Shown here piece after piece: positions 9,784-12,915 of a stretch of DNA of 33,037 nt (position 1 is its first letter; every line of letters starts with the position of its first letter). Source of the DNA: Chloroflexota bacterium (GTDB lineage: Bacteria; Chloroflexota; Dehalococcoidia; Lucifugimonadales; UBA3495); the NCBI GenBank assembly GCA_022566155.1, contig JADFJS010000003.1, positions 1 to 33,037 of the forward strand. The letters are read 5' to 3'. The notes under the pieces are model-generated. The model ran no database searches and was not told where the DNA came from. It saw only the letters and a list, made by a program, of their open reading frames with translations. Made by a program: the position numbers and the translations under genes.

Positions 9784-9813
9784 TTGACATAGAAATTAAG
9801 GTGGGAATACAAT
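9784..9813 (+). promoter_or_regulatory. Sigma70-type promoter for the bifunctional nuclease-family gene
   Basis: TTGACA - 18 nt - TACAAT, 38 bp upstream of ATG 9852. Confidence 0.65.
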
Positions 9814-9851
9814 TCTTATGGAGCCAATGGCGAATTACGGAGGCAGCGGTA

Positions 9852-10412
9852 ATGCTGGAGATGACCATAGACAGCATAAGGGTAAGCCCCATGAACTATC
9901 AGAGGGTTGTGATCCTGAAGGAAAAGGATGCCGACCGCTACCTGCCGATCTGGATCGGCCCAGCCGAAGCCGATGCCATTGCCGTGAAGCTGCAAGACCT
10001 TACCGTTCCCCGGCCCCTGACCCATGACCTGCTGAGCACTATAATTGACACCCTCGGTGGGTCCGTGCAGCACATCCTGGTTAACGACCTTCAGAACGAT
10101 ACCTTCTACGCCAAGATCACCATCCAGACCAACGGCACCTCCAAGGAGATCGACTGCCGCCCCAGTGACGCTGTCGCCCTGGCGGTGAGGGTCCAGGTAC
10201 CCATCTATGTCGAAGAATCGGTGCTTGATAAGGCCGGGATCCTCTTGGACAAAGAGACGGGGAAACCCATAGGTTCTGGGGGAAAGGAAACCAAGGATGA
10301 CGGCAAACCCGTAGAGGTAAAGGAAGAGGAGTTACGGCGGATGTCCGCCTTCACCGATTTCATCGATACCCTGGACCTGGAGGACTTCGGTAAGGGACAG
10401 GCTGCCAAGTGA
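9852..10412 (+). CDS. Bifunctional nuclease family protein (BFN/DUF151)
   Basis: MLEMTIDSIRVSPMNYQRVVILKEKDADRYLPIWIGPAEADAIAVKL...RPSDAVALAVRVQVPIYVEESVLDKAG. Confidence 0.92.
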   Translation: MLEMTIDSIRVSPMNYQRVVILKEKDADRYLPIWIGPAEADAIAVKLQDLTVPRPLTHDLLSTIIDTLGGSVQHILVNDLQNDTFYAKITIQTNGTSKEIDCRPSDAVALAVRVQVPIYVEESVLDKAGILLDKETGKPIGSGGKETKDDGKPVEVKEEELRRMSAFTDFIDTLDLEDFGKGQAAK

Positions 10413-10803: not shown

Positions 10804-11877
10804 GTGGGTTCGGGCGCCAAAAGATTCACCCTGCTGGCTATTATCTTCGTCTTTGCGCTATTCGTTGCCGGCCTGATGACCGGCGCGATCGGCGCAGTTT
10901 TCTACCAGTCCGATGAGGATAAAGAAGCCGGCCTGACCGCCGAAGGTCCCTTCATACCCAAGCCGGAGGTCCACCTCCCGGCCCAGACCGTGTTCCCTAA
11001 ATCGGAGCGAGAATACTACCTGGAATTCCTGGAGGCCGAGGAAAAGGAAAGGGAACTGGGAGAAGAGGCCCTCAGCGATCACGAGCGCGCGTTGGTAGAT
11101 GATGGGCCTTTTCGTGGCAACTTCACTATCCTCATCACCAACACCCTTCTCTCGTCCTGGCTAGCCAGCTTGCTTCTTATCCTCCTCTTCGTGCTGGGCG
11201 CCAGAAAAGCCAAGCTGGTTCCGGGGCGCCTCCAGACCTTCGTCGAATTAGCCATAGAGGGGCTGCTGAAGTTTGTTGAAGGAGTCGTGGGGAGACAGCG
11301 GGCACGGATGCTCTTTCCCGTTATAGCCACCATATTCCTGTTCGTGATGTTCAACGCTTGGATCGGCCTGCTGCCGATATACCCGGCCATCGGCTTCATG
11401 ACGGGAGACCACATTCAGATCCACTTGCTGCGGCCGGCGGGCACCGATATGAACATGCCCCTGGCGCTGGCGCTGGTCTCCTTCGTGTTCGTGGAGTATC
11501 TGGGCTTTCGCATGTTGGGCATCGGCTACCTCACCAAGTTTGTACGCATTGGCAGTCTGAAGCGGGGTGTGGCCGACCTGGTGCGGCTGCGGTTCTTGGG
11601 GGCTTTTCAAAATCTTCTAGACTTCTTCTTCGTGGGGCCGTTGGAAGCCTTTAGCGAGCTGGTCCGGTTGATCAGCTTCACCTTCCGGCTATTCGGTAAC
11701 ATGACCGCTGGTGAGATACTGGTTCTGGTGTCCGCTTTCCTGGTGCCCTTCATCGCCACGATAGGAGTGTACGGTCTGGAGCTACTGGTAGGCTTTATCC
11801 AGGCCTTGATCTTTGCGGGCCTGACACTTGTCTTCGCGGCCATCGCCATGATTCCTCACGATGCGGAGGCGCATTGA
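10804..11877 (+). CDS. atpB: ATP synthase F0 subunit a
   Basis: Conserved ISFTFRLFGNMTAGEILV and a C-terminal TM bundle. GTG start. Long N-terminal charged insert. Confidence 0.95.
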   Translation: MGSGAKRFTLLAIIFVFALFVAGLMTGAIGAVFYQSDEDKEAGLTAEGPFIPKPEVHLPAQTVFPKSEREYYLEFLEAEEKERELGEEALSDHERALVDDGPFRGNFTILITNTLLSSWLASLLLILLFVLGARKAKLVPGRLQTFVELAIEGLLKFVEGVVGRQRARMLFPVIATIFLFVMFNAWIGLLPIYPAIGFMTGDHIQIHLLRPAGTDMNMPLALALVSFVFVEYLGFRMLGIGYLTKFVRIGSLKRGVADLVRLRFLGAFQNLLDFFFVGPLEAFSELVRLISFTFRLFGNMTAGEILVLVSAFLVPFIATIGVYGLELLVGFIQALIFAGLTLVFAAIAMIPHDAEAH

Positions 11878-11983
11878 TGCTGCGCCGAAGATTCGCCGGC
11901 GGCTACGGCTCTGGCGGCAATGTCCACCTGCATAGCCCCGGCTTGAAGCGTGCCGGGCGAGGTATAAACAAAAGGGGGATGCA

Positions 11984-12082
11984 ATGGAAATAGTCATCTT
12001 CGCCCTGGTGGTCGCCACCGTGGGTCTGGTGGCGGCCGCGTTGGGCGGTATATTCGCTATCTACGCCTCGCGCCAGGACTGA
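11984..12082 (+). CDS. Small single-TM protein (32 aa), function unknown; absent from the ORF track
   Basis: ATG GAA ATA ... GAC TGA = MEIVIFALVVATVGLVAAALGGIFAIYASRQD. SD-like AAAGGGGG lies just upstream. Sits between atpB and atpE. Confidence 0.7.
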   Translation: MEIVIFALVVATVGLVAAALGGIFAIYASRQD

Positions 12083-12116
12083 CGCTACGCTGTACAAATT
12101 TGAGAATCTAAACTAG

Positions 12117-12398
<282 letters not shown>

Positions 12399-12411: not shown

Positions 12412-12915
12412 ATGCTAGAGACACTGGGAATCCATTTTCCAAGCCTCATAATCTATCTGGTTAACTTTGTCCTACTGCTAGGGCTGCTATATCTGTTCGC
12501 CTACAAGCCCATCCTTCGCATCATGGACGAGAGGGCCGATCGCATCCGCGATAGCCTGGCTGCCGCGGACCAAGCACGGGCAGAAGCCGCCAGCTCCCAC
12601 GAGGCCATCGAGGAGCAGCTTAACGAGGCCCGCCGCGAAGGTCAGCGGTTGCTGGATCAGGCGCGAGAGGCCGCCCGAAGGTTCCGGGATGAGGAGATGG
12701 ACCGGGCCCGCCAGGAGGCGGAGACCTTCGTTTCCCGGGCCCGCTCCGATATCCAACGGGAGAGAGACGCCGCCATTGAAGAGGTGCGGGCCAATTTCGG
12801 CGACCTGGCCATCACCGCGGCGGAGCGAGTCCTCCGGCGTACGCTGGACCGGCAGGCCCATCAAGACCTTATTGCGCAGGTCTTGGAAGAGGGCGAAAGT
12901 CTGAGCAGAGGGTAG
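12412..12915 (+). CDS. atpF: ATP synthase F0 subunit b
   Basis: N-terminal TM (FPSLIIYLVNFVLLLGLLYLFAYKPILRIMDER) plus long coiled coil. Confidence 0.94.
   Translation: MLETLGIHFPSLIIYLVNFVLLLGLLYLFAYKPILRIMDERADRIRDSLAAADQARAEAASSHEAIEEQLNEARREGQRLLDQAREAARRFRDEEMDRARQEAETFVSRARSDIQRERDAAIEEVRANFGDLAITAAERVLRRTLDRQAHQDLIAQVLEEGESLSRG

Follow-up and report, generated by a model that had tools for sequence, protein, structure and literature searches.

In the F-type ATP synthase operon of a Chloroflexota bacterium (contig JADFJS010000003.1; the 33,037-nucleotide [nt] stretch analyzed is referred to as the window), the genes for subunits a and c of Fo, atpB and atpE, are separated by 248 nt, from the atpB stop at 11877 to the atpE ATG at 12126. 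This raises the question of whether the gap contains a gene and, if so, what its product does. The initial annotation had placed here an open reading frame (ORF) of 32 amino acids (aa), preceded by a strong Shine-Dalgarno (SD) sequence. Our analysis reproduced this ORF, termed here the mini-ORF, with an ATG at 11984, a TGA ending at 12082, 32 codons and exactly the peptide that had been quoted. The sequence directly 5' of its ATG is AAAGGGGGATGCA, with AAAGGGGGAT upstream and the SD core at 11973-11978. The ORF had also been described as filling a gap of ~250 bp; the size of the gap was correct, but the wording slightly overstated its occupancy, since the ORF takes up 99 nt and leaves non-coding stretches of 106 nt on its 5' side and 43 nt on its 3' side. 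The data presented below provide good support for a real gene at this position, without a name in the libraries searched, which belongs to the ATP synthase operon (gene order ATPase_gene1, atpB, mini-ORF, atpE, atpF, followed by further genes).

To assess the conservation of the mini-ORF, we inspected the same locus in related genomes. AtpB was detected in 77 of 79 of them, and a subset yielded matches to the mini-ORF itself, most of them immediately after atpB. The atpB-atpE gaps from every available relative amounted to 116 distinct gaps, 44 of which, from the window's Dehalococcoidia/SAR202-type lineage, hold an ORF of 31 to 33 aa, or 36 aa as read in two cases, that contains a single strong hydrophobic stretch. 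These members were chosen by hydropathy and not by their SD sequence, and an SD-like purine run was found upstream of all 44. Gaps without the mini-ORF were mostly short; among the 49 gaps of at least 140 nt, 44 contained it, and three of the remaining five harbored a broken copy. A profile built from 22 members matched 45 of the 250 genomes of the order, at one place per genome, and atpB and atpE flank every intact copy whose sequence was read. The named relatives are metagenome-assembled genomes of the SAR202 cluster and other Dehalococcoidia, with the sea and groundwater among their sources; cultured SAR202 strains include Ca. Lucifugimonas marina JH545 (CP046146; PMC10444878). Profile scans of the class and the phylum retrieved only members from the home order, weak matches inside longer open frames, and one genome placed in another order (G332). 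The 3-kb atp locus of the latter (L227) shares 2934 31-mers with the locus of G057 (L030), so that two genomes placed in different orders of the class carry near-identical loci; one of them, G332, is therefore probably misbinned. None of the 26 readable atpB-atpE gaps of other Chloroflexota (the window's own excluded) contained such an ORF, and the sole hydrophobic match in these gaps, with 60 aa and a peak of 1.62, was unlike the mini-ORF.

A hydrophobic ORF may arise by chance in an ordinary intergenic spacer and encode no protein, an explanation with which the broken copies in three relatives and the lack of a match in family libraries would agree. However, none of 3000 dinucleotide shuffles of the window's gap gave a comparable ORF, defined as an ORF of 28 to 37 aa with a TM-grade (transmembrane) hydropathy peak and an SD-like site, and the 62 gaps of at least 110 nt contained 44 real ORFs versus 0.0 expected from shuffles. 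Strong purifying selection, specific to one frame, was also observed. Among the 13 members of 32 aa, the proportion of synonymous differences (pS) was 0.66, which is near saturation, whereas that of nonsynonymous differences (pN) was 0.17, resulting in a ratio of 0.26; an NG86 version of this estimate was computed as well. The other two frames of the same DNA gave pN/pS values of 1.15 and 3.23. Differences at codon positions 1, 2 and 3 numbered 678, 220 and 1338, respectively; the pairs compared are non-independent, so the corresponding chi-square is not to be taken at face value. Conservation of the ORF and a synonymous bias in relatives had been proposed as a check on the gene, and its outcome was strongly positive (44 loci; pN/pS of 0.26). 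Together, the shuffles and the selection analysis already refute a chance origin of the ORF. As judged from these sequence comparisons, the conserved entity is the peptide, retained by natural selection.

The members share a common layout, namely an acidic N-terminus, an apolar stretch of ~26 residues that presents a Gly/Ala face, and a short tail of K/R and acidic residues. Residue 2 is D or E in 37 of the 44 members, and a K or R within the first 8 residues was found in only one, whereas 40 carry a basic residue within the last 6 and 41 have an acidic end. The window's peptide has a single R/K, located 3 residues before its end. Because basic residues occur in the tail and almost none near the N-terminus, the positive-inside rule predicts an N-out/C-in topology. 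AlphaFold2 modeled the single chain as one helix spanning residues 2 to 31, with a mean predicted local distance difference test score of 95. The small residues G14, A17, A18, G21 and A25 follow the 100-degree period of a helix (permutation p of 0.025), and conservation likewise peaks at this period (p of 0.022), as expected for a helix-packing face.

We then compared the peptide with known families. The claim that this is an unannotated single-TM protein stands. There was no Pfam family match for the window's peptide. None of the 22 profile members matched the AtpI/AtpZ models PF09527 and PF03899 or the ATP8 Pfam model at an E value of 0.1, and none matched the AtpR model PF12966. For subunit c, there was no Pfam match to PF00137, and hhalign of the 44 members against the AtpE proteins of the same loci gave 1 aligned column. 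The only NCBIfam match was to Psb35 (NF047378), a photosystem II assembly factor, with 16.3 bits against a curated cut-off of 40, and a profile search against Protein Data Bank chains returned no match. By these tests, the mini-protein is not AtpI, AtpZ, AtpR, ATP8 or subunit c. For Chloroflexota, our search of the open-access literature found no report of a peptide encoded between atpB and atpE, which is weak evidence of absence; in an operon survey (PMC4154653), intervening hypothetical ORFs are denoted by "X".

The presence of the mini-ORF was then mapped on a tree of 116 AtpB rows, a quick tree with many weak nodes, so that gains and losses can be counted only approximately. Presence and absence changed 6 times, as compared to ~37 times with shuffled labels. 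A supported node of 83 rows comprised 42 with the mini-ORF, 3 with a broken copy and 38 without it. The simplest reading is that the gene is old within one large AtpB clade and disappeared once at the root of a subclade of 36 rows, with single losses in L069 and L086. Its origin could lie deeper in view of two divergent outer members, L182 and L202, which were identified by position, size and hydropathy alone. The broken copies differ in nature. That of G031 (L004) has lost its ATG and contains an in-frame stop, charged residues in the helix and many replacements, because of which it looks like real decay; G475 (L122) has one in-frame TGA and G059 (L059) a frameshift, both of which could be assembly errors. 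The mini-protein is thus dispensable in at least one genome, and an accessory role fits better than a core one. In family f1, the genus label g5 comprises two AtpB types, of which that ~54% identical to the window's AtpB (e.g., G039, G041 and G045) occurs without the mini-ORF and that ~72% identical (e.g., G004, G026 and G034) with it; this suggests either an operon replacement or an over-wide genus label.

As to function, we consider it probable that the mini-protein is an accessory subunit or an assembly/stability factor of Fo, with its N-terminus out and its C-terminus in, packing via the Gly/Ala face. It would be made from the same mRNA as subunits a and c, between the two and where they are inserted, enter the membrane N-out/C-in, pack G14, A17/A18, G21 and A25 on a neighboring Fo helix, and act there in either capacity. 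Its binding to Fo is suggested by its position and its co-inheritance with AtpB. An Fo accessory or assembly peptide had been proposed in the initial annotation, and this is the role best supported by the operon position, the exclusive location and the co-inheritance, whereas the broken copies and the clean loss in the 36-sequence clade argue against an indispensable subunit. Several data weigh against the role in Fo. The mini-ORF is missing from that entire AtpB clade and from at least two single lineages, its broken copies in three relatives stand beside an open AtpB, and the Gly/Ala periodicity is only modestly significant. Furthermore, no residues of AtpB, AtpE or AtpF changed convergently in the independent losers, and no partner surface was indicated. 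R248, L308, Y323 and H352 of AtpB and one AtpF column, which differ between the sequences with and without the mini-ORF, were considered as such a surface and rejected as clade history, because the independent losers mostly keep the residue of the former. A more specific proposal is that of a stoichiometric single-helix subunit, extra to a, b and c, which would be an independent bacterial counterpart of the mitochondrial supernumerary Fo subunits, gained deep in SAR202-type Dehalococcoidia and later partly lost; this is conceivable, but we regard it as rather doubtful.

The main rival on mechanism assigns the role to translation. The mini-ORF would be a leader whose translation tunes that of atpE or the stability of the mRNA, the peptide being secondary. 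It carries its own SD sequence and immediately precedes atpE, and hairpins are predicted in several upstream spacers. In E. coli, the atpB-atpE intergenic region is a translational enhancer for atpE. The enzyme requires far more copies of subunit c than of subunit a. However, the constraint is on amino acids and not on nucleotides, with pS near saturation and pN low, and many families of the order retain the TM helix together with its tail. Between 28 and 124 nt separate the mini-ORF from atpE in all members, which leaves no stop/start overlap for coupling, and comparison of the flanking spacers across the member set revealed no common sequence. Because the peptide sequence is what selection preserves and the spacing to atpE varies, a leader role is disfavored and seems improbable. 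Slightly less improbable, yet still unlikely, is a small membrane protein that is expressed together with the atp operon but acts elsewhere, regulating a protease, an ion transporter or another respiratory complex: small TM proteins can regulate unrelated partners, the binding to Fo is putative, and some lineages dispense with the protein. Against this stand the single profile match per genome, the readout of all intact copies between atpB and atpE, a position held across a deep clade, and a presence that follows the AtpB tree. That the peptide is a remnant or partial duplicate of a neighboring Fo subunit (half of c, the TM segment of b or the N-terminal helix of a) is very improbable. Its tail, ...YASRQD, resembles by eye the end of c helix 1 (...AIGRNPE), and hhalign gave a weak match to AtpB residues 13 to 38 (P-value of 0.013, probability of 3%). 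That AtpB helix, however, has the opposite predicted topology, the comparisons with AtpE and AtpF yielded 1 aligned column each and no alignable match, and constant length together with selection indicates an intact gene and not a decaying piece. Homology to c, b or a was thus rejected, as profile-profile comparison gave nothing significant, and the likeness of ...YASRQD to ...IGRNPE was dropped.

The favored role, that of an accessory or assembly factor of Fo, has parallels in other systems. With the class of operon-encoded small TM accessory proteins (CydX, KdpF), the mini-protein shares conservation, selection, a single TM segment and a location in the operon of the complex. AtpR and AtpQ of N-ATPases are likewise extra small membrane proteins of an F-type ATPase operon; unlike the mini-protein, they are multi-helix proteins from a different operon type. 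Mitochondrial ATP8 (A6L, subunit 8) is a short single-helix Fo protein whose gene adjoins that of subunit a. ATP8 is located in the stator (PMC4505582), and the long C-terminal part that runs along the peripheral stalk in ATP8 was not found in the mini-protein, which at 32 aa ends in a polar tail 4 to 5 residues past its helix and has no match to the ATP8 model. By analogy, its function may best be likened to that of CydX, to which it is unrelated. CydX is a 37-aa subunit of the E. coli cytochrome bd oxidase, encoded next to the enzyme, and its presence tracks the CydA tree (PMC4325964). Both are tiny single-helix proteins that annotation easily overlooks; each is encoded in the operon of a large complex for energy conversion and tracks the phylogeny of a main subunit. 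The complexes differ, there is no known sequence relation, and binding and function are proven for CydX but only proposed for the mini-protein. Small non-core hydrophobic proteins of atp operons also include the AtpZ/AtpI family, in which AtpI contributes to stability and assembly and AtpZ is linked to Mg2+ acquisition (PMC4453477); they are larger and encoded upstream of atpB, and the window's PF09527 protein is a separate gene. Further genes for extra hydrophobic proteins, namely, AtpZ in alkaliphilic Bacillus and orfX in Nonomuraea, differ in position from the mini-ORF (PMC4453477); orfX, from the atp operon of an actinomycete, is flanked by atpI and atpB.

The coordinates of the mini-ORF and its neighbors are compiled in Table 1.

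Table 1. Features of the atp locus around the mini-ORF (positions in the window)
Feature	Position	Strand	Evidence or remark
ATPase_gene1 (AtpZ/AtpI-type) protein, 73 aa	10571..10792	+	PF09527, Pfam E 2.6e-14
atpB (Fo subunit a), with N-terminal extension	10804..11877	+	PF00119, Pfam E 2.6e-36
Spacer from atpB to mini-ORF	11878..11983	+	Variable length among relatives, without common sequence across the set
Shine-Dalgarno AGGGGG of mini-ORF	11973..11978	+	Sequence upstream of ATG
Mini-ORF, 32 aa, MEIVIFALVVATVGLVAAALGGIFAIYASRQD, single TM helix	11984..12082, stop codon included	+	Conserved in 44 distinct loci; frame-specific purifying selection; AlphaFold2 helix
Spacer from mini-ORF to atpE, holding atpE Shine-Dalgarno AGGGAGGA (12115-12122)	12083..12125	+	
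atpE (Fo subunit c)	12126..12398	+	PF00137, Pfam E 3.7e-18
atpF (subunit b)	12412..12915	+	PF00430, Pfam E 4.4e-29

The spacer between atpB and the mini-ORF reaches up to 206 nt among members. In the window, it contains a perfect 6-bp hairpin, CCCGGC-TTGAAGCGT-GCCGGG, at 11937-11957. In six relatives of genus g5 (L003, L004, L005, L010, L011 and L012), this spacer carries a repeated element, GTTATAATCA, with a GGGC-containing stretch no more than a few bases after it; weaker forms occur in L006 and L007. The element resembles an internal -10 box, and in its place the window has TATAAA and a GC hairpin. The long N-terminal extension of the window's AtpB (10804-11100; the PF00119 domain begins at residue 116) comprises an additional hydrophobic helix as well as an acidic stretch and aligns in relatives with and without the mini-ORF. 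A good match to a sigma-70-like promoter (TTGACA, 18 nt, TACAAT) was found at 9784-9813, at the start of an ORF (9801-10412) that shares its strand with the atp genes.

Bacterial F-type ATP synthases are regarded as the minimal form of the enzyme, with a, b and c in Fo. If the role proposed here is true, a conserved and selected, Fo-linked extra peptide in this abundant and hardly cultured lineage would mean that Fo has acquired supernumerary helices in bacteria as well. The relatives with, without and with broken copies of the gene make the role of such helices directly testable, and the profile, together with the positional rule, can now be used to annotate a gene that is too small for most pipelines.
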